Origin: Croceivirga radicis
Lineage (GTDB): Bacteria; Bacteroidota; Bacteroidia; Flavobacteriales; Flavobacteriaceae
NCBI RefSeq assembly: GCF_002072105.2
Contig: NZ_MTBC01000001.1
Coordinates: 310,001 to 374,000 of the forward strand
Direction of reading: 5' to 3'
Length of the DNA: 64,000 nt
How positions within the stretch are numbered: the stretch's first letter is position 1; the number at the start of each line of letters is the position of its first letter. This document shows positions 18,676 to 59,321 of the stretch, piece by piece. The translations under genes were made by a program, and so were the position numbers. Below the pieces are notes generated by a model. That model was not told where the DNA came from. It searched no databases and saw only the letters and a program-made list of their open reading frames with translations.

Positions 18676-19827
18676 ATGTTGTTTAAAGAAGTTTTAGGCC
18701 AGCACCATTTAAAAACACACTTAGCGGCCACCGCAGACGCAGGTAGAATTCCGCACGCACAATTATTTGTGGGGCCAGAAGGTAGTGGAACCTTGCCATT
18801 GGCCCTAGCTTATGCCCAATATATACTTTGCGGCAATACGGGCGGTGAAAATCTTGGAGACAATAGTAGTTGTAACTTAAAATGCAGCGCATTTACCCAT
18901 CCAGATTTACATTTTGTATATCCAGTAGCTAACTCGGATAAGGTAAAAACGCATGCCATAAGTGACAATTATATTAACGAGTGGCGGCAATTTCTTAAAG
19001 AACAGCCTTACGGTAATTTGTTTGATTGGTACCGAGCCATTGGAATTGAAAAGAAACAGGGTTTAATAGGAACCGAAGAAGCACAGGAAATTGTAAAGAA
19101 ATTAACCTTAAAATCCTACGAAGGTGGTTATAAGGTAATGTTGATTTGGATGGCAGAAAAAATGAATGCTTCTGCGGCCAATAAATTACTTAAACTAATT
19201 GAAGAGCCACCAAACAAAACGGTTCTAATTTTAATAGCGGAAGATGCGGAACAAATAATCAATACTATTAGAAGCCGTTGCCAAATATTACAGTTTGGCC
19301 CTTTGCCAGAACCCGTTATCGTAGAACGCTTATTGTTAAAAGGTGCTTCTAATGATGAAGCCAATAGGTTGGCGCACGAAGCAAACGGAAATTACAACAA
19401 GGCTATAGACTTATTAAACCAGGATTCTGAAGATTTGGTTTTTGAACGATGGTTTGTTCAATGGGTACGTACCGCTTTTAAGGCTAAGGGTAATAAAGCT
19501 GCCATTCATGACTTATTATTGTGGAGCGATGAACTTTCTAAAACAGGAAGGGAAGTGCAAAAAAAATTTATACAATACTGCATTGCCATTATTAGACAAG
19601 CGCTATTGTTAAACTATGGAGCCAATGATTTGGTCTACAGCAGCATTGGTGTAGATAATTTTGATTTGGCCAAGTTTGCCCCTTTTGTTCATGAGAATAA
19701 TATTATGGGCATTATTGAAGAATTGGAAAAAGCCATGCTTCACGTGGAACGCAACGGTAATACCAAACTTATTTTTACAGACCTTTCTATTAAACTAACG
19801 CGTTTGCTTCACAGCAAAGCCGCCTAA
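18676..19827 (+). CDS. holB: DNA polymerase III subunit delta'
   Basis: A 383-residue AAA+ clamp-loader subunit. MLFKEVLGQHHLKTHL and GRIPHAQLFVGPEGSGTLPL mark the N-terminal RFC-like domain. The Walker A lysine is missing (GPEGSGT), as expected for the non-hydrolysing delta' subunit. The zinc-module region has Cys residues (YILCGNTGG, SSCNLKCSAF). MNASAANKLLKLIEEPPNKT is the sensor region, and RSRCQILQF is present. It loads the sliding clamp at the replication fork together with DnaX and delta. It leads an operon with the DoxX-like gene, 11 bases downstream. Confidence 0.93.
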   Translation: MLFKEVLGQHHLKTHLAATADAGRIPHAQLFVGPEGSGTLPLALAYAQYILCGNTGGENLGDNSSCNLKCSAFTHPDLHFVYPVANSDKVKTHAISDNYINEWRQFLKEQPYGNLFDWYRAIGIEKKQGLIGTEEAQEIVKKLTLKSYEGGYKVMLIWMAEKMNASAANKLLKLIEEPPNKTVLILIAEDAEQIINTIRSRCQILQFGPLPEPVIVERLLLKGASNDEANRLAHEANGNYNKAIDLLNQDSEDLVFERWFVQWVRTAFKAKGNKAAIHDLLLWSDELSKTGREVQKKFIQYCIAIIRQALLLNYGANDLVYSSIGVDNFDLAKFAPFVHENNIMGIIEELEKAMLHVERNGNTKLIFTDLSIKLTRLLHSKAA

Positions 19828-19838
19828 AAAACTAAGAC

Positions 19839-20240
19839 ATGCATTTACATTTTACTGAAAACGCAACCCAACTTATCTTATTAGCCATGATTATTATTGT
19901 TTTTATCCAAAGTGGTTTGGATAAGGTATTTGATTGGCATGGAAACTTATCTTGGCTAAAAAGTCATTTTGAAGAAACTCCTTTTTCTGGTTTGGTGCCT
20001 GTTTTGTTAGGAACAATTTTGGTAATGGAGCTTGTTGCGGGGATTTTATCCGTTATGGGTTTTGCCCATTTGTTATTGTTTAATGATGTGGTTTTTGCCT
20101 TTTATGGTGTATTACTAGCGGCAGTGACTTTACTAATGCTCTTATTGGGCCAACGGGTTGCCAAAGATTATGAGGGGGCAAAAACCATAGTAATTTACCT
20201 AGTCCCAGTATGTTTGTTACTCTTTTTGGTAACTAAATAG
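19839..20240 (+). CDS. DoxX-like membrane protein
   Basis: A 133-residue protein with four predicted membrane helices and almost no soluble part. QSGLDKVFDWHGNLSWLKSHF after the first helix resembles DoxX-family proteins, where a conserved SGxxK motif follows the first helix. The function of this branch is not known; some DoxX relatives act in redox or sulfur metabolism. It is co-transcribed with holB and ends before a strong terminator. Confidence 0.75.
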   Translation: MHLHFTENATQLILLAMIIIVFIQSGLDKVFDWHGNLSWLKSHFEETPFSGLVPVLLGTILVMELVAGILSVMGFAHLLLFNDVVFAFYGVLLAAVTLLMLLLGQRVAKDYEGAKTIVIYLVPVCLLLFLVTK

Positions 20241-21092: not shown

Positions 21093-21923
21093 TTATTTGG
21101 CTTTTTTGAGGATATAAACATGGGAAGACCATTCTTTGGAACCTATTGCAGCTAAATTACTGTATAACCCTTTCAGAAATCCTCTAATAAGTGTGTTTTT
21201 GACACCTTTGTAGCGCTCAGATAGCATACTAACATAAAACGAATCAAAATACATGGGCTTCGTTTTTTGTAAGGCTAAATCATGCTTACCAAATAATTGC
21301 ACAATGCTATTTTGCGAAAAGTGCCAGAGATGTCTAGGCACATCAAAAGCGGCCCAATAGGTTTTATAATGTTTAGCATCCCAACTTTTAAAATTAGGAA
21401 CCGCAATAACCAACACACCGTTGTTTTTTAAAAGTGAAACCAATCTGCCTATTGTATCTTCCAAATCAGGCACATGTTCCAAAACATGCCAAAGCGTAAT
21501 ACAATCAAAACTTCCTGGCTTCAAACTATTCAAGTTCTCTTGTAAATTAATACCCTTTTGCTTAGCCAAACCTCTGGCCTTAGCATTTGGTTCAACACCA
21601 GAAACAACAAAACCTTTACTTTTAGCAACAGATAAAAAATCACCCGTACCAGCGCCGTAATCTAAAAGTTTTCCTTCATCACCTATATACTTATTTAACA
21701 TCACTACCTTACGTTTAAGGGTAAACCTTTTTACGAATTGATACAGCTTTTCGAATATTGAATCTGCACCATCTGTGTGCGAAATGTAATCCTCACTCTG
21801 ATAGTAACGATTTAAATCTGAAGGCACAGGTTTAGTGACCAACATATCTAAGGAGGAATCATACAACAATTGAAATGACTCCTTGGTAACAGAATAGTCT
21901 TTAGTTTCTAAATAAACTTCCAT
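21093..21923 (-). CDS. Class I SAM-dependent methyltransferase
   Basis: A 276-residue protein from ATG 21923 (MEVYLETKDYS); nine extra upstream codons are possible but unlikely. Residues about 90-190 are a Rossmann methyltransferase domain with the SAM motif LLDYGAGTGDFLSVAK, ITLWHVLEHVPDLEDT and VLVIAVPNFKSWDAKHY. The flanks resemble the Methyltransf_23 type seen in lipid or surface-polymer modification. The substrate is unknown. It lies 80 bases after mnmG, with a parS site between them. Confidence 0.85.
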   Translation of the reverse strand: MEVYLETKDYSVTKESFQLLYDSSLDMLVTKPVPSDLNRYYQSEDYISHTDGADSIFEKLYQFVKRFTLKRKVVMLNKYIGDEGKLLDYGAGTGDFLSVAKSKGFVVSGVEPNAKARGLAKQKGINLQENLNSLKPGSFDCITLWHVLEHVPDLEDTIGRLVSLLKNNGVLVIAVPNFKSWDAKHYKTYWAAFDVPRHLWHFSQNSIVQLFGKHDLALQKTKPMYFDSFYVSMLSERYKGVKNTLIRGFLKGLYSNLAAIGSKEWSSHVYILKKAK

Positions 21924-21987
21924 ATTGATTTTAAAAAACAATAGCCTCAAAAGAGGCTAAAGTATTTATCTTCTAGTATAGCTTTAT

Positions 21988-22003
21988 TGTTCCACGTGGA
22001 ACA
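21988..22003. other. parS centromere site 1 (ParB-binding palindrome)
   Basis: TGTTCCACGTGGAACA, a perfect 16-bp palindrome equal to the bacterial parS consensus bound by ParB/Spo0J. It touches the stop codon of mnmG (22004-22006). The 11 bases to its left (ATAGCTTTATT, 21978-21988, overlapping it by one base) are almost the same as at the second site. Confidence 0.92.
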
Positions 22004-23872
22004 TTACCTCCCTAAGTGAACTAAAAGCACGGAAATATCGGCAGGTGAAACACCACTAATTCTAGATGCTTGTGAAATAGTCACCGGTTCAATTTCCTTT
22101 AGTTTTTCTCTTGCCTCAAAACTTAAGGACTTTAACTTGGCGTAGTCAAAATTCTTAGGAATCTTAATCCCCTCTAAACGCAATAATTTGTCTGCGTTAT
22201 TCTTTTCCTTTTCAATATACCCAGAATACTTAACCTGAATTTCTGTTTGTTCTAACACGTCGGTATTCAAATAATTTTCCGTTACATATTCTGAAACTTT
22301 GTCCAATTGTAACATATGATCCATTGTAACTTTAGGCCTAGAAAAAACCTTGAACAGCTTGTCAGATTGTTTCACCAAAGAAGAATCCAAACGCTCTAAA
22401 ATTGGATTAATTTCATCTGGATTAAAACTTGTGTTTTTAAAGAAGGAGACAAAGTCACTAGATTCTTTTTCTTTGCGCTCCATATTTTTTAACCGTTCTT
22501 CTGATGCCAATCCAATTTCATAACCCCTTGGTGTTAATCTTAAATCTGCATTATCCTGCCTAAGTAAGGTTCTATACTCTGCTCTGGAGGTAAACATACG
22601 ATACGGCTCTTCTGTGCCTTTGGTAATTAAATCGTCAACCAAAACCCCAATATATGCTTCGTCCCTATTAAGAATAAAAGGGTCTTGATCATATACTTTT
22701 AGATGCGCATTTATACCCGCCATTAGACCCTGAGAAGCCGCCTCTTCATAACCAGTGGTTCCATTAATTTGCCCTGCAAAAAACAAATTGTCCACTAGCT
22801 TGGTTTCCAATGTGTGCTTTAACTGTGTAGGCGGAAAATAATCATACTCTATGGCATAACCCGCCCTAAAGAATTTTACATTCTCAAATCCCTTAACAGA
22901 ACGTAATGCTTTAAATTGAACATCTTCCGGCAGACTAGTAGAGAAACCGTTTACGTAAACCTCTACCGTATTCCAACCTTCTGGCTCTACAAATATCTGA
23001 TGTCTGTCCTTATCTGCAAATCGGTTAATCTTATCTTCTATTGAAGGGCAGTAACGAGGTCCCAAGCTCTTAATTCTACCATTGAACATTGGCGAACGAT
23101 CAAAACCTTCTCTAAGCAAATCATGCACCAACTCACTCGTATGCGTCATGTAACAATCTCGTTGGGTGGTTAACTTATGCGTATCTAAATACGAGAATTT
23201 TTCAGGCTTGCTATCTCCAGGTTGGGGAATCATAACAGAATAATCCAATGATCTACCATCCACTCTAGGCGGTGTGCCTGTTTTCATTCTACCACTCTCA
23301 AAACCCAATTGAACCAACTCCTCCGTAATACCTGTAGCAGCACTTTCACCAGCTCTACCTCCACCAAATTGTTTTTCGCCAATATGTATTAAACCATTTA
23401 AAAAAGTACCATTTGTAAGTACAACTGATTTTCCTTTTATCTTTAAACCCAAGCTGGTTTTTACACCAACTGCTTTGCCATTTTCTACCAACAAACCACT
23501 TACCATCTCTTGATAAAAATCAACATTTGGCGTTTGCTCTAACAATAAACGCCATTCCTCAGCAAAACGCATTCTATCATTCTGCGTTCTTGGGCTCCAC
23601 ATTGCCGGTCCTTTGGATTTATTGAGCATTTTAAATTGTATGGCAGAGCGATCCGATACTATTCCACTATAGCCACCAAGGGCATCAATTTCACGTACAA
23701 TTTGTCCTTTTGCAATTCCGCCCATGGCAGGATTACAGGACATTTGCCCAATATTCTGCAAATTCATTGTTACCAACAATGTACTGGAACCCATGTTGGC
23801 AGCAGCCGCGGCGGCTTCCGCTCCAGCATGGCCACCTCCTACTACAATAACATCATACTCCTTATCAAACAT
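22004..23872 (-). CDS. mnmG: tRNA uridine-5-carboxymethylaminomethyl modification enzyme MnmG (GidA)
   Basis: A 622-residue FAD protein of standard length. It has the dinucleotide-binding [14 protein letters not shown], the GidA signatures [19 protein letters not shown] and [11 protein letters not shown], and the C-terminal tRNA/MnmE-binding region. With MnmE it modifies the wobble uridine of several tRNAs in the cytoplasm. The ATG at 23872 follows the ybeY stop by four bases. It is flanked on both sides by parS sites. In many bacteria this gene sits close to the replication origin. Confidence 0.97.
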
Positions 23873-23876
23873 AGCT

Positions 23877-24296
23877 CTATTGTTCCACGTGGAACATATT
23901 AATTGATTTATCTTCTTGTAATCTCATCTCTTTTGCGTCTGACTCTGTTTTATCTTTAAAACCTAATAGGTGTAAAACACCATGAGACATAACACGCAAT
24001 AATTCATTTAAAAAAGATACCCTATTAACTACGGCATTTTCCTTTATACGTTCCAATGAAATAAAAATATCACCAGAAATATAATTTCCATCTACATAAT
24101 CAAAAGTTATAATATCCGTATAGGTATCATGGTTTAAGTACTTCATGTTAATACCATGCAGATACTCATCATTACAAAATATAAAGCACAAATCGCCTAC
24201 CTCCTTTTCATGCCCATTAATAATCCTAGTTAACCAATCGGGATACAAGGAAATATCATTTAGCTCAAATTCTGTTTCGTTTACAAACTCAATCAT
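23877..24296 (-). CDS. ybeY: Endoribonuclease YbeY
   Basis: A 139-residue metal-dependent RNase needed for 16S rRNA 3' maturation and ribosome quality control. The signature [16 protein letters not shown] is present with two of the zinc histidines. The third His of the classical HGxLHLxGYDH is replaced by a K-D-K segment, which I recall as usual in Bacteroidota. [21 protein letters not shown] precedes it. The last six residues are encoded by parS site 2. Its start overlaps the end of the DUF4175 gene by eight bases, and mnmG follows four bases after its stop. Confidence 0.93.
23881..23896. other. parS centromere site 2, inside the 3' end of ybeY
   Basis: TGTTCCACGTGGAACA, identical to site 1 and 1.88 kb from it. 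It lies just ahead of mnmG and encodes the last residues of YbeY (MFHVEQ, with the stop just beyond). The left flank ATAGCTCTATT matches that of site 1 in 10 of 11 bases. Confidence 0.92.
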
Positions 24297-37012: not shown

Positions 37013-40000
37013 ATGAGTAAGCCCCTACTAACCAAGTTACTCTTTGTAACCCTATGCCTCTTTACCCTGCAATCAATATTTGCACAAGTAAAGAACAATT
37101 TTGATCCAAGATATAACGACAACCTAAGAGGTGATTTAACCTTAATAGGAAATAATATTGTTAACCGGGATGATGGTACTTCTACTACAGAGCCAGAAGA
37201 TCCCTATAACACCACGGGCTTTAGGCTTGTCTATTATAGAGGGCGACTCTATAGAGTTCCAAACGCTACTGCTAACGATAGCTTTGACATGCAGTACATA
37301 GATGTGGATAATGATCCTTCCACTTTTAGTTCAAGTAGCGCAGATTTAAACGTACCAGACACAGATTGTTCTAGAGTAAGATATGCAGGTTTGTACTGGT
37401 CTGCTGTTTATGTTAATACCAACAGAAATGGCATAGATCAAGTACGTTTGCGTACACCTGGATCCACTAATTACATAGACATAAATGCCACAGAGGTGTT
37501 ATTTGATGGGCAAGGAGATGCGGATTTTGGTTATTATAGTCCTTATGCCTGTTATGCAGATATTACAGGGTTAATTACAGGTCTCGCAAACCCGAATGGT
37601 GAATATACCGTGGCCAATATTTTGGCTAGTAATGGGGGAGGTATCTCTGGAGGAATTTCCGGAGGATGGACCATGGTGGTAGTTTATGAAAACCCAAACT
37701 ATCCAGGTAAATATATAACCACTTTTGATGGTTACGCAGGTATAAAATCTGGGGAAAGTTTAGATATTCCAATTACTGGTTTTACAACTTTACCAGCTCC
37801 GTTTCCTGTTAATGCACGTTTAGGCGTTAGTACCTTAGAAGGTGATAATAACATTGAAGGAGACGGCCTAGCTTTTAGAGCAAACATGAACGGTGGTTTT
37901 ACCCCGTTGGGCAATGGTGCCAACCCAAATAATAACTTCTTCAATAGTAATATTACCTTTGAAGACAACGTAATCATGGACCGTAACCCAAACAGTATTA
38001 ACACACTAGGTTGGGATATAGACCATTTTACCATACCAAACACGCTTAATAACGTAATTCCAAATGGAGAAACAGGTGCTGTTTTAAGAGCTTCTTCTTC
38101 CCAAGATAAATACGATATCTTTTTTACTTCTTTTGATGTAGAGATTATTGAACCCAATATTCTGCTGACCAAAACTGTGGAAGATATTGGTGGTAATGAT
38201 ATTACAGGACAGGGTGTAAATCTTGGACAGTTATTAGACTATGTATTAACTTTTGAAAATACAGGAAACGATGATGCAATTAACTACCAAATAAGAGATG
38301 TTTTACCCATAAACGTAACCTTAGATGAGAGTAGTATAGTTATGCCTTCTGGCGTTACCTACACGTTCGATGCACCCTCAAGAACCATTACATTTAATGT
38401 GCCGGATAGTTTGGTAGAAGAATTTGATCCAGCATCGACTATTCGAATGCGCGTTCAAGTTGCGGAAAACTGTTTCGACTTTATTAATGCCTGCTCAGAT
38501 TTAATTGAAAACCTTGCCTATTCTACGTATAGAGGTGCTATTAACTCTGCAACCATTACAGATGATCCTTCAGTAACCGATTTTGATAATTGTGGATTTG
38601 TAACCCCAGGGGCAACCAACTTTTTATTGGACGATTTAGAAAATTGTGATTATTCTAGAACCGTGTTGCTTTGTGGTGAAGATGTCTTGTTAGACTCCGG
38701 TGATAATTTTGATAATTACATCTGGTATATAGACGAAAACGGAGATAGATTAATAGACGCAGGAGACACGGTAATTACTGATGCCGATAGCGATAATGAC
38801 CCTAGTACCATAGTGGTTACCGAACCGGGAGTCTATATTGTAGATAAGCAAGTTGCAGATCCTTGTAAAGGTTTTCAAGAAATTATAACTGTAGAATTAT
38901 TTGGACAAACACAAAGTAACCCAATTACTGCGCTAATTAACGATACTACAAATACAGTTGAGGGTAATATTCTTGTTTGTCCAGATGATGGGGAAGAATT
39001 ACCGGAAATCTTTTTGTGTGGTCTTAACGATGTAGAACCCATTCAAATTAATATCCCTGATGCGGTAAGCATTGTTTGGCAACAATTAGACGAAGCTAGT
39101 TGTGCCGAAGCCAATACAGATTGTGCCAACAAAAATAACACCTGTACTTGGAACCAAGTAGAGACTGGTTTTACCTATAACGCTTCAGATGCTGGCCAAT
39201 TTAGGTTACAGATCAACTATGAAGATGGTTGTTTTAGTAGGTTTTACTTTAACGTATTTAAAAATCCTTTAGACCCACAGGTAGAAACACAAGATATCAT
39301 GTGTGGTGTAGATGGCTTTATTCGTGTTACCAACATGCCGGTTAATTACGAATATCAATTGGTAAATGATGCTACAAATGCAATTATAACTCCATATAGT
39401 GCTGGCCAAGGCCCAGAATTTCCAATTGATCAGAACGGTGCCTACCGTGTAGAAATGAGACAAATTGGTGTTACTGGCGGTTGTGAATTTGTATTAGATA
39501 ATATTGGTATAAGAGAACGAAATGTTAGTATCACAACAGACATTAACAATGTTAGTTGTAATGGTCTAGGCTCTATAAACGTTTCCCTATTAGATGCAGA
39601 TGTACAGTATTACTACAGTTTAATACAAGGCGGAACGGAAGTAGATAGTTTTGGCCCCTCTGATGATAACAATTATACTTTTGAGAATAAGGCTGCAGGA
39701 GATTATACGGTACGTGTAACTACGGACGCAGGATGTGATTTAACTCAAGATGTTACAATTTTAGATGAATCTGATTTAGAACTAGAAGCAGTAATATCGC
39801 AACACATTTCTTGTAGGGAAGGTAATATTCAGATGAACTCTACAGGTGGGCAAACGCCACATACCTATGCCATTTATGAGTTTGTAGATGAAAGTGGCAC
39901 AACCGTTACTTCTTATAGTGATCCTTCTAACGTTCCTAACAGTGAATTTCAAACAAGTGTAATCTTTGATATTCTTATACCGGGCACCTATACTTTTGTG

Positions 40001-43000
40001 GTAGTAGATAGAAACAATTGTTTTGCTTTCTCCAACCCAGTAGAAATCGTATTAGTTCCATCCGTAGAATACACCACCAGCTCACAAGATGAAAGTTGTT
40101 TTGGTGCAAACGATGGTAGTATTAATATAAATTTGGTTACCTCCAATGGATACAATGTTACCTATTATTTGGAAGATGAAAATGGAAATCAATTAGCTAG
40201 CAACAATTCTGGTCAGTTCTTGAATTTAGCCCAAGGAGATTATGATGTAATCATAGATCAACGTAAAGGAAATACCCAGTGCGATTTTGTGGAGTCTTTC
40301 ACCATTGGTGGCCCTACAAGTGCGGTTACTGGTGATATAGCTTTGATTCAAGATTATACTTGTTTACAAAATGGAATTATAGAAGCACAAAACGTTACGG
40401 GTGGAGATGCACCGTATGAATACAGCATAGACGGTGTTAACTTTGTAAGTGGAGTAGGGGCAGAACGTTTTAGCAACCTTACGGATGGTACTTATAGAAT
40501 TACCATTAGAGATGCCAATAATTGTACGTTTATTACAGACCCTATTACCTTATTGCCACTTAATCCGCCTACAGATTTAGATTTTACGGCTAGTGCAGTT
40601 ACCTGCCCAGACAATACATCCAATGTTACTGCAACGGTAACCGCGGGTACGGCTCCTTTCGTTTTTGAAATAATTGCGCCTTCTTCGGTTACTCCTGATT
40701 CTGCTTCTGGGTCTACCGCAACTTTTAATAACTTAAGCCCAGATACCTATAACTTTAGAGTTACGGATAGTAGAGGTTGTGTGTATACGGAAACCTTTAC
40801 CATTGCTCCAATCACTCCAATAAATGTAATTGGTCAATTAGAGAGTAATATTAGTTGTTTAAATGCAACAGACGGTGAGGCAAGGTTTATGGTAAATGGC
40901 TTTAGTACCAACTATAATTATACCATTACAGGACCACAAACTTTTAATGGTACCAATGAAACGAACACCACTATAGACCTGACTAACCTAGCGGCAGGTA
41001 CCTATACTATTTCGGTAACGGATAATACCACCAATTGTACCGATACGGCATCGGTTACTGTGGAGGCACCAACAGCACAATTAGCCATTTCTATTGTAGA
41101 AACACAACCAACTTGTATAACAGACGGAAGTGTAGCTGTAACAGCAAGCGGAGGTTGGGGTAGTTATACCTACACCTTAACAAACCCAGATACCACAGTA
41201 TTTGGTACCAATACTACCGGCTCTTTTAACGGATTAACACAAACTGGACAATATACGGTACAAGTAGAAGATGCAAACGGTTGTATAGTTCCTGGTAATT
41301 TTACCTTAAACGCAGCTATAGCACCCGTTTTAGAACTAGTTCCTAACGATTTTTGTTATGATAATACAACCGGATTAACGCTAACCGCAAATGTAACTAG
41401 TGGTGGCGACGGCAATTTTGAATACAGTATTAACGGAGGTGCTTTTTCTAGCAATAATAGTTTTATAAATCTTTCTGCAGGTACATATACCGTGACTGTA
41501 CAAGATGGAAAATCTTGTACCGATACAGAAACAATTACAATTAACCCACAACTAACGGTAACAGCCACGGCAAGCAATATCACTGCTTGTGCTACCTCTA
41601 CTACCGTAGATATTACGGCTGCGGGTGGTGATGGTAATTATGTATACGCAGTTGTTTTAACGGGTACTACTCCGGCTGCCACAGATTTCTCAACAACAAA
41701 TCCGACAACAGTTAACGCTACAGGTACTTATGATGTTTACGTAAGGGATAATTCAGGTAATACAGATTATTGCGAAGCAGTAGATACGATAGTAATAAAT
41801 CAAGACCCTGCCCTTAATTTATCGATTTCTAATACAGCAATATTGTGTAGCGGTGATGCTTCATCAACACTTACGGTAACTATTACAGGCGGTGAAGGTC
41901 CATATACCTACAGCATTGACAATGGTGCAACCTATCAACCAGAAAACACATTTGATAACCTTGCTGCAGGTAGCTACCATGTTAGGGTTAGAGATGCTAA
42001 CACTTGTGAAATAGACCAGATTAATAACATTTCTGAACCATTACCTTTAAGCGCTTCTGCAGCAGTAGCACAACTGGCAGAGTGTAACCCTAGTGGTGCA
42101 GAAATAAGAATTACAAACGTAATTGGAGGTACAGCTCCCTATACCTATAGTTTTGATGGTGGTACCACGTATGGCGCAAGTTCTATAGAAAATCTTTTAC
42201 CAGGAGACCATACATTATTTGTAAGGGATGCAAATAATTGTACTTACCCTATGACAGTTACCGTACAGCCAGAACCAACCCCACCTAATGCAACGGCTAC
42301 AGTGGATTATGAGTGTGATGGTGAAGGTATAATTACAATTACACCAGACAGTGCAGATTTTGACTACACCTATTTAATAGATGGTACCCCAAATACGCCT
42401 GATACTTCTAATATTTTTAATAACGTACCTACTGGTAATCATACAATAACAGTAAATTATACCAGTAATATTGCACCAACGCCAAGTATACTTTTAACTG
42501 AAAACTTTGGTGCGGGTGCCAATACCCCAATTAGTGAAATTGATCCAGCATATTGTTATGAACCTCAAGACGGTTCTACAAGTTTATGTGGCTTTGGAAC
42601 GGATACACATATCCAAGATGGTGAATATTCTGTTACCAACTTGATAGTTAATCCTTACGGTTCTTGGAGGTCCCCTAGTGATCATTCTGGACTAGCCAAT
42701 GGCAGATTTCTAGCAATAAACGTAGGAGGTGTGGCCGGTGTAGGTGGTATTGTATATCAAAAAACTGGTGTTGAGGTTATACCAAATCAAGATATCGAGA
42801 TATCCTTATGGGCATTTAACCTATTAAGAACAGGTTCAACTGGAGGTGATCCTTCTATAGAAATTCAATTGGTAGATGGTAGTGGTACCATTATTGCCAG
42901 TACTACAACAGGTAATATTCCTAAAAACAGTAATGCTAATGATTGGCAGAACTATACGGTTAATTTAAATCCTGGTGCCAATGCCAATTTAGATATCGTA

Positions 43001-46000
43001 ATAAGAACTAACTCTGCAGTTACACAGGGTAACGATATTGCTATAGATGACATTCAAGCATTACAATATCCAGAGGCATGTCCTTCTAGTATTACCCTAG
43101 ATGTTCTAGTAGAAGAAGGTAATGAACTAGCTGCTAGTATTACCAATTTTACCAACATCAGCTGTAATACCGGTAGTGATGGTGCAATTACCTTTCAAGT
43201 AGAAAACTTTGATACTACCAATGGTTACGAATACCAAGTAAACGGTGGTGGTTACATAACCACAACTAATGCCAGTGTAACCCTACCAAACTTAACAGCA
43301 AACACCTATGTTATTGATGTTAGGGATATCAATGATAATAGCTGTGCTATACAACTTACACAAGTTTTAACGGAGCCAACTTTAGTGGAAGTAACGGCTA
43401 CATTAGATGCACAAGTTACCTGTACTGCTGGGGCAACCATTACGGCAAATGCTACTGGAGGTACCCCCAATTATACGTACCAATTAGAAGATAATGCAGG
43501 TACACCAATAACCAACTTCGATTTTGCTACTAATGGTACCAATACCGTTTTTTCAGATTTGGCAGCTGGTACCTATATAGTACGTGCAAGAGATACCAAT
43601 GGTTGTGAAGATGTAATTGATTCTCCCATAGTAGTAAATGCACCTGCCGTGTTAACATTTATTACAACTGCCACTGCTTGTTATAGTGGTGCTAATGATG
43701 GACAAGTAATTGTTAACGTAACTGCTGGTAATGGCGACTACTTATTTAGTTTGAATGGTGGACCGTTTATAGCGCCTGTACCATCAACATTAACAACATA
43801 TACTTTTGATAATTTAGGTCCAGGTACGTATACGGTAGATGTTATTGACGCATCTGGTTGTACGGCACCGCAACAAAGTGTTACTATTACAGACCAATTG
43901 GTTGCAAACGCTGTACTAAACCAAGATTTAACTTGTTTGGTTGATGCACAAGTAACCATAAATACCACAGGTGGTTCTGGTACTTATTCGTACGAATGGT
44001 CTAATGATGGCGGAACTACATATAATACAACTGGATTTACTGGGAATGTTTTTACAACCAATGTAGCCGGTACGTATCAATTTCAAGTAACGGATACTAC
44101 CAGCCCAACATCTTGTAGCGTGGTTACCAATACTGTGACCATTACACCTGCTGTACAACCAGTAATAAGCTCTGTAACGCCAACTCACATTTTATGTCAT
44201 GGAGAAAGTACTGGTGCTTTAGATGTGGTTATTGATACTTCTATAGGAGTGCCTCCTTATGTTATAAATGTAGTTGAAACCGGTTCTGGTACTATCTACA
44301 ATACACAAACTACCGGATTACCGGCAGGGGATTACCAAGTAACTATTACAGATGACAAAGGTTGTGTGTCTAATCCTTTCTTGGTAACCATTAATCAACC
44401 AGATGTTATTGATTATGATGTTGATAGTCAACCAATAACATGTGATAATATAGGAGGAAATACTATTCCTGGTTCTATTTCAATTGAAAATACGACTGGG
44501 GGAACAGCAGAATATACTTATTATTTAACTGGTAATAATGGCTTTACGGATAGCCACACCACTACAGCAAGCAATCGAGATTATACTTTTACCATTTTAG
44601 AATTTGGAATTTATCAAATAGATGTTGTAGATGCCAATGGTTGTGCTGCCTTTACTACAGAAATAATAGCATCACCACCAACTGATTTAGATATTACAGT
44701 AAACACTACTCCTACAAATTGTACAGATGGAGGAACCGCAATAGTAGAGGTAGATCCAGCACTGACAACGGGCAGTGGTAGTTATGAATTTGGAATTTTA
44801 GAAACTATAACTTTTCCATACACTACTAACTGGTTTAGTAATGGAACAAATATTATAACTTTCTCTTCTGCTGACCCAGATACCGGTACCTATTTAACAC
44901 CAGGTATTACCTATACCTTTGTTGTTCACGATTTAGTAACAGATTGTTATTATTTTAAAGAAGCAGATACACCAATAGATACACCTTCTAACTTAACAAA
45001 TACATTGGATGTTGTTGCTAATGTTAGTTGTACAGGAGCGGCAGATGGTAACGTAACATTCACTTTTGATAATTATGATGTAGGAGCTACGGCTATTGAC
45101 TATGAAATATTTTATCAACAATCTAATGACCCTATAACCCCTATGCCAATAAATGGTTCTTCGCCAGTTTCTGGACCCGTTACACCAGTAACAATTTCAA
45201 ATTTAGGTCCATTGGCTCCAGGTGAATATTATATTTTACTTACTGAAGTGGGAGGTGCAAATGCAGGTTGTAGTGTCTTTGGAGGTGAATTTACCATAAG
45301 GGAATCCGTAAACTTATTATCAGTAGACGTTACATCACCAACAAACGATAATTGTAATCTTAATGCGGGTGTTATAACTGCCACAGGAAGGTTTGGTACC
45401 GCTCCTTATGAATATCAATATTTACCTGATACTGCAGCAGCTCCTTTAGCCACAGATGCTGGCTGGACTACCAATACTAGTGCTAATGTAGAAGCAGGAG
45501 ATTATATCGTTTATGTAAAAGATGCTTATGCTTGTATCCAGCAAGCACCAATTACCGTTTTAGAAGATGTACGCCCAGAAATAACGCTTGCTATAGTAGA
45601 TGAATGTGTTGCTGAAGGTAGTTTTGAGGTATTGGTAACCCTTGATAATCCAGCAGCTGCTAATGCTCCTTTCCAAATAAGCATTAACGGTGGTGCTTAC
45701 CAAAACTTTACATTCAATGCAAGTAATGAATATACGGTTACTGGTTTAAGTTCTGGTTTAACCCAAACCATAAATGTTAGGGATGTAAATGGCTGTGAGG
45801 ATTCAGATACCATAGATATTTATCCTCCTTTACAATTTAATGCTCGTTTAACCACTGCTTTGGATTGTGAACCTGCACCTGCAAACAATGCAGAGATTAC
45901 TATTGATGTATTAGCTGGTTCTGGTTCTTATGATTATGCAATTGATGGTCCTGGCACGGTAGACCAAGCACAAACAAACATGGTTGGTTCCAGTGTTGTT

Positions 46001-49000
46001 TGGACGGATGCTAGCGTAGCTGGTGATTATGATATTACCGTGTATGATACCAGTACGGCAATTCCTTATTGTTTGGGTACAATTACTGTAAATGTGCCAG
46101 CTGCGGTACAACCTGTATTTACGCATACACCTACAGATGTTACTTGTAACGGAGGTGCAGATGGTACTATCCAATTATTTGAAACAAATACGGGTATTAA
46201 TCCATTAACTTATACCATTTCACCAGCTGTTGGTTCTTTCAATAGTACAACATTAACTTTTGAGAATCTACCGGCAGGTACATATACAGTTACTGGTACA
46301 GGAACCAATGATTGCGAGTTGGTTATCAACAATATTGTTATAGATGAACCTACGCCGGTATCCATAGATACTGTAACTACTACAGATTTCCTTTGTACCA
46401 ACGGTAATAATGAAAATAACGCTACTATAAGCGTAGATGCCATTACCGGTGGTAGCGGTACTTATGTGCGTTATGAATTTATAGAAGAAGATGACCCTAA
46501 TACAGTTCCTGTAGAAACACCCGTAATTGTACAAAACGGAAATAACCCAGTACTTACCGTAACCGATTTTGCTGGTGGGGTATATACCATTAATGTGTAT
46601 GATTCTGCAGGATGTATGGACAGCACTACCGCTACAATAGTTCCTTTTGATGAATTACAAACGGCTACAGCTGCCATTACCAATCCGTTGAGTTGTTCTC
46701 CAGGTTCAGATGGTGAGATAACTATAACAGTAACCTCAACAGCCAACGATGTTAATCAATATGAATATAGTATCGACAATGGTGCAACTTGGCAAAATAC
46801 TGGCAATAGCGCTACACCTAATGTATTTGGTGGTTTAACCGCAGGTACCTATAATTTCTTGGTAAGACATCTAGTAACGGGTTGTACTATTAGTACTTCT
46901 GAAACCCTTACAGACCCTAACACGTTTACCATAGACGTAGACGTGGTTAGTGATGTAATTTGCTTTGGAACGGCTACGGGTGAAGTTACCTTTGAATTGA
47001 TAGATGCAACCTATACTAGCGGATTCTCTTGGGAGATATTCAATACCAATGGTACACCAACCAATCAAGGTGACGATACCTCTGAGGGTACTGGTTCAAT
47101 AGCCACTACAGGTCCTACAGCTGGTATTAATTTACCTGCAGGTAGCTATTACGTAGTAATTACGCAAGATAATTTCCCAACCTGTGAAAATACACAGGCC
47201 TTTACCATTGCTGGTCCTAATGCTGCTATTACCGCAAACCATACAACAACACCAATAACCTGTATGTCTGCTTTATTGGATGATGGTAGTATTACCATTA
47301 CCAATGTACAAGGCGGTTGGGGAGGCTATACCTACTTTGTAGGTGCAGATGGTGTTATACCAACAGCTACGGATTTTGTAACTAATGCTTCTTTTGGTAA
47401 CCTAACTGCTGGTACGTATGATGCTTGGGTAAGAGATAGTGAAGGTTGTGAACAATTGGTACAAGATGATATCGTCCTAACCAATCCAACCCCAATCCAA
47501 GCTACTTTACTAGTAACCAATGACAACTGTACCAACTTTGAGGGCGAATTAGAAGTAGTTGGTATACCGGTAACAGACCCAGTTAGTGGTGGTCAAGGTA
47601 GCAACTACACCTACCAATTATTCAGAAATGGTACTGCATTTGGTTCTCCACAAACCAGTACCACCTTTATAAACTTAGGCGAAGGTAATTATGAAGTGGT
47701 AGTGTTAGACCAATGGGGTTGTACTTCTACTACTAATGCCGAGTTGCTATATGATGAAATGAACATTAGTACCACGGTAGATAAACAAATAGACTGCTCT
47801 ATAACGCCTGCTGGTACAATTACGGTTAACGTAAACGGTGGCTCTGGTAACTATAATTTTGAAATGACCGTACCTAATACAGGTGCTGTTATAAACCAAA
47901 ACACAGGTACTTTTAATAATTTGACTGAAGTTGGTGTGTATACTTTTGTGGTTACTGATACAGATACTAACAATCCTGTTTGTACTAGAACCATAACCCA
48001 AGAATTGGTAGCACCTAGTACTACTACATTGGATACACCTATTGTTTCAGATGTTTCTTGTTTTGGTTTGGCAGATGGTAGCATTACCGTTGTACTTGCC
48101 GCAACTGCGCCAGGTATTAATGAAGATGCTCCTTACAGTTATAATTTATATGATAATACAGGAGTGCTTATTACTGGTCCACAACCTAATCCAACTTTCA
48201 CTGGTTTGGCTGCTGGTTTCTATCAAATTGAAGCGGTTTCTGCTAAAGAATGTGCATCTGTACGTACTACAGTAGAGGTAGAGCAGCCTACAGCTTTAAG
48301 TGCAACTGAAATGGTAACTGCATTTGCATGCGCACCAGACAATAGTGTAAATACAGCTACTTTAACTATAACAGCTACAGGTGGTACATCGGCTTATTTA
48401 TATAGCATAGATGGTACTAATTATCAAACTCAAAATACCTTTGAAATTATTGATAATGGTACTGTACAAACTATTACTTATTATGTTAGAGACGCCAATG
48501 GATGTCCGTTTACAGATAGTGTAACCGTAAATCCAATTAATACATTTAGCGCAACTGTAGCACAAGATGTACAAATTTCTTGTGCGGTAAGTGAAGAAGT
48601 AACCATTACGGTTAATGATAATGGTGATGTTAGCAACGTATACACGTTTGAACTACTGCCTATTGGTAATACAGCAGCAACCTTAACTGGTACACCTGCC
48701 TATAACCAAGCATCATTTGAATTAACAGAAGTAGGTTCTTATACCTTCCGAGTTACAGATACAGCTACTGGTTGTTATTTTGATACCACAGCTTATGAAA
48801 TTGCACCCTATGATACCATTGATGTAATTGCTACAGCAACAGCTCAATCTATTTGTTATGGCGATACTTCTGGTGAAATTACTATAGATGTATCGGGTTA
48901 CAACGGTACTTATGATTATACTGTATATAATCAAGATGGAACGGCTACAGCTATAAACGGTAGTGGAAATACAACTACCAATCCTTTAGTGATTACAGGT

Positions 49001-51343
49001 TTAGCAGGTGGTAACTATTTTGTACGGGTAACAGAAACTGCAAATCCATTATGTGTAGAAGATTCTAACATAGTAACTATAGTTTCTCCAGATAGACCAT
49101 TAACAGTAGCTGCACAAGAAGTAGCCAATGTAGGTTGTTCTGATGATTTGGGTGAGATTAACGTTGTGATAGATGGTGGTTATTTACCGTACGATGTGGT
49201 TTTGACCAACACCACTACAGGTAATGTATTTACGCAAAACAATGTAGCAGCAGCCCTATTTACAGGATTAGGTGCAGGCGCATATACCATTCAAGTAACA
49301 GATAACCAAGGATGTGTTGTTTCAGATACGGAAACCCTAATTGCGCCAACGCCAATAACAGCAGGTATAACGGCTACTCCTACTATTTTACAATGTTTTG
49401 GAGATACCAATGCTTCAGTTACTGCCGTAAACCCAGTAGGTGGTGAGGGTGTTTACTTATTTGAGTTAAACTACTATGATGAAACAGGTAGTTCATTACT
49501 ATTTACCAGTGGCGCACAGAATAGCCCAACATTTAATAACTTAGGTGCTGGTGTGTATAGTATACGAGTATCCGATGGTTGGAACTGTGAGTTTGAAACT
49601 TTACAAGTAACTATAAATGAACCAGATGAGGTGGCTGCGTCTTTAGTGCAAGTATCTGCTCTTACCTGTAATAATTTAGCGGTGATAGAATTAAACGCTG
49701 TAGGTGGTAATGCACCTTATGAATACAGTGTAGATGGTGTTGTATATAGTCCTATGTCTGGTGGTGATACGCATTCTATAAATGTTTCTGCCGGTATATA
49801 CCAATACTTTGTTAGAGATAGTTTTGGTTGTGAGGCAATGATTACCAATCAAGTTTCTGTAGAAGAAGTTCCAGAATTAATGATTGATTTAGATCTTACG
49901 GCCGCAATAATAAACTGTACAGGTGAAGCAACTGCTAGAATAACTGCAAATGCATCTGGTGGTCTTGGAAACTATTCTTACGAATTGTTTACGGATGCTG
50001 CGTTGACCAATAGAATTGCTGGTCCACAAACACAAGAAAGTTTTAATAATCTAGCTACGGGTAGTTATTGGGTAAGGGTAACCAGTGTAGATTGTATTGC
50101 GGTATCTACAGAAGCAGTTATTACTGAGCCAGCTCCTTTACAGGTAGATAGAGAAGAATTTACAAACATTAGCTGTTCTGGAGAAGAAGATGGTAGTATT
50201 TATGTAGAAGTATCTGGTGGTACAGGAGAAATTTATTATGCCATTTCTCCAAATCTTAACCAATTTGATACGGACAATACCTTTACAGATTTGGCCCCTG
50301 GCATCTATGATATTATTGCTCAAGATGAGAACGGTTGTTTCTTAACCTTCCAATTTGAACTTACGGCACCAGAACCGTTAGAGGCTGAAGCTATTAATAT
50401 TGAACATGAAATTTGTTTTGAGAGCGAAGATGGTGCATTTGAACTAGCCATTACTGGCGGTACTGCTCCTTATAGTACAAGCTTAAACTCAAATGCTGCT
50501 GCAGATTTTGTACAAGACCAATTCAGTTTTGGTAATTTACCAGCTGGTACACATGTAGTATTTGTTAGAGATGCACAAGGTTGTGAAACCAATGTATTTG
50601 TAGAAATAAATCCAGGAGTTGATCTTGCTGCCACGGTAACACCTATGTACAGTTGTAGCGGTAACATACCAGATAATAACTTGGATATTGTTTTTAACGA
50701 TAGTACTGTTATGGGCAATGTACTATACGCACTAGATTCTACGGATCCTGCAAGTATGCAATTAAACGCAGACTTTACCAATATTGCGCCTGGAGAGCAT
50801 TATTTAACTATTGCGCACGAAAATGGTTGTATCAATACCATTCCATTTACAATTAACTATTATGAGCCATTGACTTTAACATTGGAATCTAATAACGTAA
50901 ATGAGATTACAGCCGTTGCCCAAGGAGGTGTAGAAGAATATACGTTCTATTTTGGTGATGTTGAAAATGGATCAGACAATACCTATTACATTAATAGAAC
51001 CGATACGTATACAGTTACCGTTGTAGACCAAAATGGTTGTGAGATGTCTGCAGAGATATTTATGGAATTCATAGATATAGAAATCCCCAATTTCTTTACC
51101 CCAGATGGTAGCGGAACTAATGATACATGGGTACCAAATAATATTCAGGGCTTCCCTAATATACTAACTATCATTTTTGACCGTTATGGTAGAGAACTCT
51201 ATAGGATGAAATTGAATGATGCTCCATGGGATGGTACATACCAGAACCAAGAGCTACCTACCGGTGATTACTGGTATGTAATTAAATTAAGAGGTGAGAA
51301 TGATGACCGTGAAATGGTTGGCCATTTTACCCTCTACAGATAA
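37013..51343 (+). CDS. Giant SprB-like surface adhesin, T9SS type-B cargo
   Basis: A 4,776-residue protein. The signal peptide ends near QSIFAQ. Residues about 30-375 are a beta-rich N-terminal domain (YAGLYWSAVY, GGISGGWTMVVVYENPNYPG). About 380-490 is a DUF11-like domain (NILLTKTVEDIGG, LDYVLTFENTGNDDAINY). From about 754 to 4680 there are some forty SprB-type repeats of 75-95 residues, each with a Cys near the start and a GTYTVxVxDxxGC-type end. Residues about 1820-2026 hold an inserted jelly-roll-like domain. The last 90 residues are the type-B sorting domain (IPNFFTPDGSGTNDTW, IFDRYGRELYRMKL). In Flavobacterium johnsoniae SprB is the mobile gliding adhesin; this protein is smaller than that one. 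It lies nine bases after a SprF gene and is followed by a second SprF gene. Confidence 0.9.
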   Translation: MSKPLLTKLLFVTLCLFTLQSIFAQVKNNFDPRYNDNLRGDLTLIGNNIVNRDDGTSTTEPEDPYNTTGFRLVYYRGRLYRVPNATANDSFDMQYIDVDNDPSTFSSSSADLNVPDTDCSRVRYAGLYWSAVYVNTNRNGIDQVRLRTPGSTNYIDINATEVLFDGQGDADFGYYSPYACYADITGLITGLANPNGEYTVANILASNGGGISGGISGGWTMVVVYENPNYPGKYITTFDGYAGIKSGESLDIPITGFTTLPAPFPVNARLGVSTLEGDNNIEGDGLAFRANMNGGFTPLGNGANPNNNFFNSNITFEDNVIMDRNPNSINTLGWDIDHFTIPNTLNNVIPNGETGAVLRASSSQDKYDIFFTSFDVEIIEPNILLTKTVEDIGGNDITGQGVNLGQLLDYVLTFENTGNDDAINYQIRDVLPINVTLDESSIVMPSGVTYTFDAPSRTITFNVPDSLVEEFDPASTIRMRVQVAENCFDFINACSDLIENLAYSTYRGAINSATITDDPSVTDFDNCGFVTPGATNFLLDDLENCDYSRTVLLCGEDVLLDSGDNFDNYIWYIDENGDRLIDAGDTVITDADSDNDPSTIVVTEPGVYIVDKQVADPCKGFQEIITVELFGQTQSNPITALINDTTNTVEGNILVCPDDGEELPEIFLCGLNDVEPIQINIPDAVSIVWQQLDEASCAEANTDCANKNNTCTWNQVETGFTYNASDAGQFRLQINYEDGCFSRFYFNVFKNPLDPQVETQDIMCGVDGFIRVTNMPVNYEYQLVNDATNAIITPYSAGQGPEFPIDQNGAYRVEMRQIGVTGGCEFVLDNIGIRERNVSITTDINNVSCNGLGSINVSLLDADVQYYYSLIQGGTEVDSFGPSDDNNYTFENKAAGDYTVRVTTDAGCDLTQDVTILDESDLELEAVISQHISCREGNIQMNSTGGQTPHTYAIYEFVDESGTTVTSYSDPSNVPNSEFQTSVIFDILIPGTYTFVVVDRNNCFAFSNPVEIVLVPSVEYTTSSQDESCFGANDGSININLVTSNGYNVTYYLEDENGNQLASNNSGQFLNLAQGDYDVIIDQRKGNTQCDFVESFTIGGPTSAVTGDIALIQDYTCLQNGIIEAQNVTGGDAPYEYSIDGVNFVSGVGAERFSNLTDGTYRITIRDANNCTFITDPITLLPLNPPTDLDFTASAVTCPDNTSNVTATVTAGTAPFVFEIIAPSSVTPDSASGSTATFNNLSPDTYNFRVTDSRGCVYTETFTIAPITPINVIGQLESNISCLNATDGEARFMVNGFSTNYNYTITGPQTFNGTNETNTTIDLTNLAAGTYTISVTDNTTNCTDTASVTVEAPTAQLAISIVETQPTCITDGSVAVTASGGWGSYTYTLTNPDTTVFGTNTTGSFNGLTQTGQYTVQVEDANGCIVPGNFTLNAAIAPVLELVPNDFCYDNTTGLTLTANVTSGGDGNFEYSINGGAFSSNNSFINLSAGTYTVTVQDGKSCTDTETITINPQLTVTATASNITACATSTTVDITAAGGDGNYVYAVVLTGTTPAATDFSTTNPTTVNATGTYDVYVRDNSGNTDYCEAVDTIVINQDPALNLSISNTAILCSGDASSTLTVTITGGEGPYTYSIDNGATYQPENTFDNLAAGSYHVRVRDANTCEIDQINNISEPLPLSASAAVAQLAECNPSGAEIRITNVIGGTAPYTYSFDGGTTYGASSIENLLPGDHTLFVRDANNCTYPMTVTVQPEPTPPNATATVDYECDGEGIITITPDSADFDYTYLIDGTPNTPDTSNIFNNVPTGNHTITVNYTSNIAPTPSILLTENFGAGANTPISEIDPAYCYEPQDGSTSLCGFGTDTHIQDGEYSVTNLIVNPYGSWRSPSDHSGLANGRFLAINVGGVAGVGGIVYQKTGVEVIPNQDIEISLWAFNLLRTGSTGGDPSIEIQLVDGSGTIIASTTTGNIPKNSNANDWQNYTVNLNPGANANLDIVIRTNSAVTQGNDIAIDDIQALQYPEACPSSITLDVLVEEGNELAASITNFTNISCNTGSDGAITFQVENFDTTNGYEYQVNGGGYITTTNASVTLPNLTANTYVIDVRDINDNSCAIQLTQVLTEPTLVEVTATLDAQVTCTAGATITANATGGTPNYTYQLEDNAGTPITNFDFATNGTNTVFSDLAAGTYIVRARDTNGCEDVIDSPIVVNAPAVLTFITTATACYSGANDGQVIVNVTAGNGDYLFSLNGGPFIAPVPSTLTTYTFDNLGPGTYTVDVIDASGCTAPQQSVTITDQLVANAVLNQDLTCLVDAQVTINTTGGSGTYSYEWSNDGGTTYNTTGFTGNVFTTNVAGTYQFQVTDTTSPTSCSVVTNTVTITPAVQPVISSVTPTHILCHGESTGALDVVIDTSIGVPPYVINVVETGSGTIYNTQTTGLPAGDYQVTITDDKGCVSNPFLVTINQPDVIDYDVDSQPITCDNIGGNTIPGSISIENTTGGTAEYTYYLTGNNGFTDSHTTTASNRDYTFTILEFGIYQIDVVDANGCAAFTTEIIASPPTDLDITVNTTPTNCTDGGTAIVEVDPALTTGSGSYEFGILETITFPYTTNWFSNGTNIITFSSADPDTGTYLTPGITYTFVVHDLVTDCYYFKEADTPIDTPSNLTNTLDVVANVSCTGAADGNVTFTFDNYDVGATAIDYEIFYQQSNDPITPMPINGSSPVSGPVTPVTISNLGPLAPGEYYILLTEVGGANAGCSVFGGEFTIRESVNLLSVDVTSPTNDNCNLNAGVITATGRFGTAPYEYQYLPDTAAAPLATDAGWTTNTSANVEAGDYIVYVKDAYACIQQAPITVLEDVRPEITLAIVDECVAEGSFEVLVTLDNPAAANAPFQISINGGAYQNFTFNASNEYTVTGLSSGLTQTINVRDVNGCEDSDTIDIYPPLQFNARLTTALDCEPAPANNAEITIDVLAGSGSYDYAIDGPGTVDQAQTNMVGSSVVWTDASVAGDYDITVYDTSTAIPYCLGTITVNVPAAVQPVFTHTPTDVTCNGGADGTIQLFETNTGINPLTYTISPAVGSFNSTTLTFENLPAGTYTVTGTGTNDCELVINNIVIDEPTPVSIDTVTTTDFLCTNGNNENNATISVDAITGGSGTYVRYEFIEEDDPNTVPVETPVIVQNGNNPVLTVTDFAGGVYTINVYDSAGCMDSTTATIVPFDELQTATAAITNPLSCSPGSDGEITITVTSTANDVNQYEYSIDNGATWQNTGNSATPNVFGGLTAGTYNFLVRHLVTGCTISTSETLTDPNTFTIDVDVVSDVICFGTATGEVTFELIDATYTSGFSWEIFNTNGTPTNQGDDTSEGTGSIATTGPTAGINLPAGSYYVVITQDNFPTCENTQAFTIAGPNAAITANHTTTPITCMSALLDDGSITITNVQGGWGGYTYFVGADGVIPTATDFVTNASFGNLTAGTYDAWVRDSEGCEQLVQDDIVLTNPTPIQATLLVTNDNCTNFEGELEVVGIPVTDPVSGGQGSNYTYQLFRNGTAFGSPQTSTTFINLGEGNYEVVVLDQWGCTSTTNAELLYDEMNISTTVDKQIDCSITPAGTITVNVNGGSGNYNFEMTVPNTGAVINQNTGTFNNLTEVGVYTFVVTDTDTNNPVCTRTITQELVAPSTTTLDTPIVSDVSCFGLADGSITVVLAATAPGINEDAPYSYNLYDNTGVLITGPQPNPTFTGLAAGFYQIEAVSAKECASVRTTVEVEQPTALSATEMVTAFACAPDNSVNTATLTITATGGTSAYLYSIDGTNYQTQNTFEIIDNGTVQTITYYVRDANGCPFTDSVTVNPINTFSATVAQDVQISCAVSEEVTITVNDNGDVSNVYTFELLPIGNTAATLTGTPAYNQASFELTEVGSYTFRVTDTATGCYFDTTAYEIAPYDTIDVIATATAQSICYGDTSGEITIDVSGYNGTYDYTVYNQDGTATAINGSGNTTTNPLVITGLAGGNYFVRVTETANPLCVEDSNIVTIVSPDRPLTVAAQEVANVGCSDDLGEINVVIDGGYLPYDVVLTNTTTGNVFTQNNVAAALFTGLGAGAYTIQVTDNQGCVVSDTETLIAPTPITAGITATPTILQCFGDTNASVTAVNPVGGEGVYLFELNYYDETGSSLLFTSGAQNSPTFNNLGAGVYSIRVSDGWNCEFETLQVTINEPDEVAASLVQVSALTCNNLAVIELNAVGGNAPYEYSVDGVVYSPMSGGDTHSINVSAGIYQYFVRDSFGCEAMITNQVSVEEVPELMIDLDLTAAIINCTGEATARITANASGGLGNYSYELFTDAALTNRIAGPQTQESFNNLATGSYWVRVTSVDCIAVSTEAVITEPAPLQVDREEFTNISCSGEEDGSIYVEVSGGTGEIYYAISPNLNQFDTDNTFTDLAPGIYDIIAQDENGCFLTFQFELTAPEPLEAEAINIEHEICFESEDGAFELAITGGTAPYSTSLNSNAAADFVQDQFSFGNLPAGTHVVFVRDAQGCETNVFVEINPGVDLAATVTPMYSCSGNIPDNNLDIVFNDSTVMGNVLYALDSTDPASMQLNADFTNIAPGEHYLTIAHENGCINTIPFTINYYEPLTLTLESNNVNEITAVAQGGVEEYTFYFGDVENGSDNTYYINRTDTYTVTVVDQNGCEMSAEIFMEFIDIEIPNFFTPDGSGTNDTWVPNNIQGFPNILTIIFDRYGRELYRMKLNDAPWDGTYQNQELPTGDYWYVIKLRGENDDREMVGHFTLYR
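39275..51050 (+). repeat. Block of about 40 divergent SprB-type repeats
   Basis: By eye I count 40 to 44 repeats ending in a G-x-Y-x-V-x-D-x(2-6)-C pattern, for example GTYRITIRDANNC, GSYHVRVRDANTC and GTYDAWVRDSEGC. The repeats differ clearly in sequence, so this is an old expansion and not a recent tandem duplication. The paired Cys residues suggest disulfides that stiffen a long fibre. The block is interrupted by a different domain at 42470-43090. Confidence 0.85.
42470..43090 (+). other. Jelly-roll (MAM/CBM-like) domain inserted in the SprB repeats
   Basis: Residues about 1820-2026 of the adhesin break the repeat pattern: ILLTENFGAGANTP, AYCYEPQDGSTSLCGF, SDHSGLANGRFLAINVGG, IEISLWAFNLLRTGS, DIVIRTNSAVTQGNDIAIDD. 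This has the order of a beta-sandwich ligand-binding module found in Bacteroidota surface proteins. It is a candidate for the actual binding site of the adhesin. The fold assignment is inferred. Confidence 0.6.
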
Positions 51344-58879: not shown

Positions 58880-59254
58880 TTATATACGAATAGGAGTTTT
58901 GTTGGTCAGGTTTAAATCGTTCAACAAAGTATCCGTAAACTTATAGTGTCCTCTAGTAGTAATAATTTTAAATCGGTTAGATTTTAATCTACTTAACGTA
59001 TCTAAGAACAACCATTTAGATTTCAATAGATTTTCTTTGTCTGTTTTTAGACTGATGTCAAAAAAGTACTTTCTACCATTTTTTTCAGCAACAATATCTG
59101 GTGTTACTGTTGTTCCAGTACTTTTTTTAAGGAAAGACTTTGGCGTATCATAGCCTTCTACATCGGCTCTGATATTTTCAAAACCAGTGTTTTCCAAATA
59201 CTTAATAGACTTCTCTAAAAATTCCGTGTTTTCTTGTTTTTCCTTTTTTATCAT
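58880..59254 (-). CDS. Small conserved-looking protein, possible nuclease-like fold
   Basis: A 124-residue cytoplasmic protein, highly charged. I do not recognise a named family, but the pattern GYDTPKSF, then TVTPDIVAEKNGRKYFFDIS with SLK, then ITTRGHYKFTD, resembles a short PD-(D/E)xK-type core (P52-D53, D66, K70). The D66-K70 spacing is not canonical. It lies 67 bases downstream of the restriction-modification genes on the same strand, so it may belong to that island or be an unrelated core gene. Confidence 0.55.
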   Translation of the reverse strand: MIKKEKQENTEFLEKSIKYLENTGFENIRADVEGYDTPKSFLKKSTGTTVTPDIVAEKNGRKYFFDISLKTDKENLLKSKWLFLDTLSRLKSNRFKIITTRGHYKFTDTLLNDLNLTNKTPIRI

Positions 59255-59321
59255 AACATATAAAATAAAAAAAACAGTACTAAAACCAATTTTTTAGTGT
59301 TGATTAACAAGTACTTAACAA

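Follow-up and report, generated by a model that had tools for sequence, protein, structure and literature searches.

Two parS-type palindromes flank mnmG in Croceivirga radicis, one of them within the reading frame of ybeY

Among described systems, the chromosomal ParABS (Spo0J/ParB-parS) system is closest to the locus analyzed here: both have 16-bp palindromes of one family, one ParB with an adjacent ParA, few sites, and a location coarsely near the origin (PMC7333895). The present locus differs in that its sites lie beside mnmG, far from parB and dnaA in ten relatives, and in that they are mostly two and in a recurrent arrangement. The same review asks why the number of parS sites varies and what holds the sites clustered over evolution.

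A second likeness is found in Thermus thermophilus HB27, where parSc lies in gidB, upstream of parA, and is thus a parS within coding sequence in a gid-par neighbourhood (PMC4409726). There, however, parA is next to a single site, whereas here parAB is encoded elsewhere, the neighbour is mnmG (gidA), and the site forms the C-terminus of a protein. Within the same family as C. radicis, Ori-Finder and GC skew put the origin at mnmG in Mariniflexile litorale and in Algorimicrobium, oriC being predicted to adjoin the gene in both cases (PMC11278836, PMC12843772), but the available portions of these two papers do not name parS sites. The literature searched, to which the main parS survey (Livny 2007) did not belong, contains no report of a bracket of sites around mnmG or of an overlap with YbeY.

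The two palindromes and the chromosomal ParB

The window, which is the whole stretch of C. radicis DNA that was analyzed (64,000 nucleotides), contains the exact 16-bp palindrome TGTTCCACGTGGAACA twice, on the two sides of mnmG. The features of the locus are listed below in window coordinates.

21093..21923, minus strand: methyltransferase-like gene, after mnmG (NCBIfam methyltransferase matches below cut-off only)
21988..22003, no strand assigned: parS site 1, perfect 16-bp palindrome, abutting the mnmG stop codon
22004..23872, minus strand: mnmG (gidA), between the two sites (NCBIfam TIGR00136, 833 bits, cut-off 525)
23877..24296, minus strand: ybeY (TIGR00043), whose C-terminal MFHVEQ and stop codon (23877-23897) run through site 2
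23881..23896, no strand assigned: parS site 2, perfect 16-bp palindrome, 8 bp ahead of the mnmG ATG and in the ybeY frame

The genes ybeY and mnmG nearly abut in the window, and an OmpH-like gene is also among the genes after mnmG. Elsewhere in the window, inspection by eye found a repetitive ORF of 4776 aa (37013-51343), presumably surface-protein-like, followed by an ORF that we take to resemble a type IX secretion-associated membrane protein, and a gene resembling a cytosine methyltransferase together with its two small neighbours (58880-61145), possibly a restriction-modification cluster.

An earlier note on this DNA had described two exact palindromes flanking mnmG, and their coordinates were confirmed. 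With up to three mismatches allowed, the window holds four matches to TGTTCCACGTGGAACA against a mean of 0.31 in shuffled sequence, and four were reached in none of 100 shuffles. When the whole genome (3,602,643 bases, 20 contigs) was scanned with up to two mismatches, TGTTCCACGTGGAACA was found only at these two places, and the reversed pattern gave no match; the search for further copies that the note had recommended thus showed that they are not spread over the chromosome. The pair, two sites within 1.9 kb, is few and clustered, as expected for parS. Both palindromes fit exactly the form TGTTNCACGTGNAACA, which we take to be that of parS. Compared with printed forms, they have one mismatch to TGTTNCACGTGAAACA (PMC4409726) and two to TGTTTCACGTGAAACA, two being the number that PMC10197239 allows.

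On the mnmG strand, the 12-bp flanks of the two sites are ATAGAGCTATGT and ATAAAGCTATAC. The flank repeat ATAGCTYTATT pointed out in the note does exist, but only to one side of the palindrome. As an extension of parS it was rejected, since over 134 loci the flanks within a genome (mean likeness 9.87 of 24 letters) are no more alike than those between genomes (9.82). By eye, site 1 read on the mnmG strand (window 21985-22005, minus) overlaps the mnmG stop as TAATG and opens a mini-frame, MFHVEQ-stop, whose six residues are those of the YbeY tail; this mini-frame is probably a by-product of the sequence common to both sites.

A single ParB_N (PF02195) match was found in the genome (C18:67815), on another contig than the sites and with a ParA-like gene directly ahead of it, so the lack of a ParB, which the note had named as telling against its interpretation, does not apply. 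The protein is of the Spo0J type. It passes the ParB/RepB/Spo0J domain model TIGR00180 (166 bits, cut-off 58), carries the GERRFRA motif, and over residues ~40-230 aligns with the solved ParB/Spo0J chains 7bnk (E 9.8e-51), 6sdk, 1vz0, and 6t1f. Residues R173 and G201 in Caulobacter numbering are described as marking the parS-binding ParBs (PMC7383237), and both are present here when positions are mapped via the structure alignment. Among the mapped parS contacts, the C. radicis protein departs at S172, which is K, and it also has K at mapped position 184, which is lysine in Noc; positions 179 and 184 vary among ParBs. The Noc-NBS system is a further relative, alike in having a related protein and site, in the score of this ParB on the Noc model TIGR04285 (236 bits, below the cut-off of 315), and in that lysine, but the site here is of the parS type, and the protein has the arginine and glycine of parS-binding ParBs.

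Conservation of the sites beside mnmG

The Flavobacteriaceae were represented by 149 genomes of 148 genera, that of C. radicis included. The strict motif TGTTYCACGTGRAACA is present in 135 of them in one to three copies each, the reversed control giving none in any; by hand tally, one copy was found in 63 genomes, two in 65, three in seven, and none in 14. Positions were analyzed in 62 loci, namely the site stretches of 48 genomes, the mnmG loci of all but one of the 14 genomes free of the strict motif, and the window, the other 87 of the 149 genomes (G099 among them) falling outside this count. Each of the 61 loci with mnmG in the stretch, the 13 from strict-motif-free genomes among them, carries the 14-bp core GTTYCACGTGRAAC both before and after the gene when one mismatch is allowed, and in 59 the cores on the two sides are exact. 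The core starts 21-377 bp before mnmG and 4-481 bp after its aligned end (stop codon uncounted). A set of 80 named loci, which may share genomes with the 149, has the bracket in 74 cases and an exact one in 67; the six unbracketed loci comprise a Capnocytophaga MAG (L284) with no site near mnmG, four loci with an upstream site only, and one with a downstream site only. When two mismatches to the motif were allowed, the 14 strict-motif-free genomes had 4-31 matches each against 1-17 for the reversed control, and because of these control counts such loose matches mean little without their position.

The remaining one of the 62 loci is from a genome of a single contig (G017, 2.6 Mb). Its mnmG is located at 1,277 kb, and the surrounding 20 kb contain no core, while three perfect sites are found at 997-999 kb beside relatives of the methyltransferase-like and OmpH-like genes that come after mnmG in the window. 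With 280 kb between mnmG and parS, this genome shows that the sites are not bound to the gene as such, and the separation speaks for a role of the place and against a role tied to mnmG.

Some loci of the family are unusual in the number or form of their sites. In Flavobacterium sp. MC2016-06 (L250), twelve parS-like sites lie 0.07-1.2 kb before mnmG, seven with exact cores and five with one mismatch, and four of the twelve are CACATG variants spaced by 116-118 bp. Similarly, the upstream sites found in a Kordia MAG (L247) and in L268 and L170, which may be the same or sister genomes, all have CACATG, not CACGTG, and the YbeY end there reads FHMEQ; another Kordia MAG (L285) has CACGTG. The CACATG sites are a possible variant of ParB recognition.

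In the phylum, the exact core was detected in 111 of 118 genomes, the reversed control matching once in six of the 118. A hand tally of these genomes gave seven without a copy, 13 with one, 79 with two, and 19 with more than two, and mnmG lies within 1.5 kb in 27 of the 30 loci returned with this search. Outside the family, mnmG was matched in 64 of 65 chosen genomes, and the resulting 64 loci, from 29 families, were read with flanks of 0.1-2.5 kb. The core with at most one mismatch is found beside mnmG in 59 of them and is exact in 54: on both sides in 15 (in one of these the downstream site is 1.95 kb off), upstream in 23 (one with an extra site inside mnmG), and downstream in 16, the other five having one-mismatch cores only. 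Where loci outside the family have two sites, these may share the upstream or the downstream side of mnmG or flank the gene. No core was found near mnmG in five of the 64 loci (G208, G182, G235, G161, and G251); a core match away from mnmG in G182, and one of the two such matches in G208, read STWNN in a threonine-synthase-like gene and are probably chance matches. Neither an mnmG match nor an exact core was found in G099 and G258, where loss, masking, or an assembly gap is possible. What recurs across the phylum is the small number of sites and their place beside mnmG, and, judging from the variable side in other families, mnmG would be chiefly a neighbour of the sites.

The ybeY overlap and alternative explanations

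The last codons of ybeY run in phase through site 2, which encodes most of the MFHVEQ peptide ahead of the stop codon. Of the 139 loci that have ybeY before mnmG, 60 show such an overlap of the ybeY frame with the first parS; four of 64 apparent overlaps (L275, L280, L295, and L298) were dropped, the alignment there having run past an earlier stop. The site is read as FHV or FHM with E or K after it in 56 of the 60 and as VSRET or VPRET in four, the third frame being used in none, and in 45 of the overlapping loci a stop codon comes directly after the site. On a FastTree phylogeny built from the MnmG proteins only (139 rows, two identical), the coding or intergenic state of the site changes eight times, three of the changes being forced by starred branches, with gain and loss not told apart.

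The possibility that YbeY needs an FHVE tail, of which the palindrome of site 2 is a by-product, can draw on the starred, fully coding clade that is the smallest to hold the window and in which the overlap is present in 23 of 23 rows. We nevertheless regard it as highly improbable. The overlap is lacking in 79 of the 139 loci, none of which has FHV ahead of the true stop (four have it beyond that stop); the four VSRET or VPRET loci read the site in another frame; and site 1, which is outside ybeY, has the identical sequence. In addition, the joint probability of the codons TTC CAC GTG GAA, given the peptide FHVE and the codon usage of the window, is 0.004, the rare TTC CAC GTG having been kept. 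Judging from these sequences, it is the DNA site that most likely sets the YbeY peptide, and not the reverse, because of the codon choice and of the relatives without overlap. The suggestion in the earlier note of a protein end shaped by a centromere agrees well with the frame counts, with the lack of FHV before the stop in the non-overlapping loci, and with the retained rare codons.

Alternatively, the sites could be operators of mnmG or ybeY, at which ParB or another protein bound at the mnmG start represses or insulates the gene, chromosome segregation being secondary. Indeed, the upstream core frequently begins 21-45 bp from the mnmG ATG, where it could block the start of transcription or translation, and ParB of P. 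aeruginosa at the intergenic sites parS3 and parS4 represses the adjacent genes (PMC7022226). Such a role is improbable, however, given that the sequence is of the parS type, that G017 keeps three perfect sites by its methyltransferase-like gene while its distant mnmG is without a core in the 20 kb around it, and that outside the family the sites may be upstream only, downstream only, or on both sides. Terminator hairpins after ybeY and after mnmG are a very improbable source of the palindromes. Site 1 does follow the mnmG stop, site 2 ends at the ybeY stop, and a terminator scan lists the 23881 site as terminator-like on the plus strand, but the genes are on the minus strand, where the scan calls neither site; moreover, the sequence, its centre included, recurs through the phylum, and elsewhere the sites occur inside coding sequence or as a pair before mnmG. 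The chance arrival of two copies of a mobile or interspersed repeat, to which the two copies and their partly common flank on one side might point, is scarcely credible and already contradicted by the constant position in all 61 family loci with mnmG in the stretch, by the lack of further copies in the genome, and by flanks that are not generally alike within genomes.

Nearness to the origin and interpretation

Skew in the C. radicis genome was read on the contig that carries the sites (652,543 bases, one of 20). Its cumulative GC skew drops to ~340 kb and reaches a minimum at 382 kb, the parS sites being at 332-334 kb; a three-segment fit placed break points at 344 and 528 kb, with a flat course between them and a rise thereafter. 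In three single-contig relatives, each sampled in 20 stretches, the skew-fitted origin is 34, 282, and 313 kb from parS, so that in two of the three the agreement is as coarse as ~0.3 Mb. The location near the origin given in the earlier note thus holds by skew on the contig itself and coarsely in the relatives.

The dnaA scores are negative in all three skew-fitted relatives, and the strong dnaA match of C. radicis is on a third contig (C14). Of 17 genomes searched, the ten that consist of a single contig, taken as circular, gave distances of 0.62-1.47 Mb from parS to parB and of 0.93-2.03 Mb from parS to dnaA. The DnaA box TTATNCACA, presumably that of E. coli, occurs twice in the window against a shuffled mean of 4.46, in neither case near the parS sites, and no TTWTNCACA box was found at 325-345 kb of the contig. 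In the window and this contig, no convincing DnaA-box cluster near the parS sites and no exact oriC were found. When one mismatch is allowed, the contig has four clusters of three DnaA-like boxes, and one of them, at window 19650-19916, is ~2 kb from site 1; as a marker of oriC it was set aside as too weak.

According to the text on M. litorale, dnaA did not fit the skew, but one figure legend of the same paper contradicts that text, giving the label ter to mnmG and the label oriC to leuB and dnaA (PMC11278836). In gut bacteria, including Bacteroides caecimuris, parS clusters are reported at ori, and ori not always at dnaA, the ori calls resting partly on parS with read coverage in support (PMC10197239). 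For Melioribacter, which branches deeply in the Bacteroidetes/Chlorobi group, an origin between dnaA and dnaN was reported (PMC3534657), so that a wide separation of dnaA and origin does not hold for the phylum as a whole.

The above analysis makes it very likely that the two palindromes are the parS centromere of the chromosome, served by its single chromosomal ParB. By analogy with the known ParABS system, we infer ParB binding, clamp loading, and segregation at these sites. ParB, encoded with ParA on another contig, would bind each 16-bp site as a dimer, close into a CTP-bound clamp, and spread across the mnmG region, and ParA would then move the ParB complex, and hence the origin region, to the daughter cell. 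The near abutment of ybeY and mnmG would bring the upstream site into the ybeY frame in this clade, and selection on parS at the DNA level would set the last YbeY residues. The ParB loading zone predicted in the earlier note is supported overall, by the few sites, the ParAB pair, and the coarse nearness to the origin.

Two wider readings go beyond this parS interpretation. The bracket may be functional in itself, such that selection in the Flavobacteriaceae maintains loading sites for ParB at the two ends of mnmG and so creates a bounded ParB-coated segment, which would couple assembly of the centromere to expression of mnmG, a tRNA-modification gene, or act as a specialised two-gate centromere; and mnmG and parS would form an ancient unit of the phylum that in this family remained bound to the origin while dnaA and parAB moved. 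To this combined proposal we give a small, though not negligible, chance. Since the Thermus parS sits in gidB next to parA (PMC4409726), the comparison also suggests that this lineage may have broken up an old, origin-proximal gid-par-parS neighbourhood, mnmG and parS being left together.

As ordinary parS, the sites and their mechanism are of a known kind, and what is of interest is their fixed address and the recurrent coding overlap. The phylum provides a case where a centromere of mostly two sites has kept its address beside one gene (in 59 of 64 loci even outside the family), and in the Flavobacteriaceae both parB and dnaA are far from this centromere in the ten genomes checked. The overlap with ybeY would be a repeated case of a chromosome-segregation site setting the end of a protein. 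If confirmed, the mnmG-parS arrangement would serve as a simple marker of origin and centromere in the Flavobacteriaceae, where dnaA can mislead.
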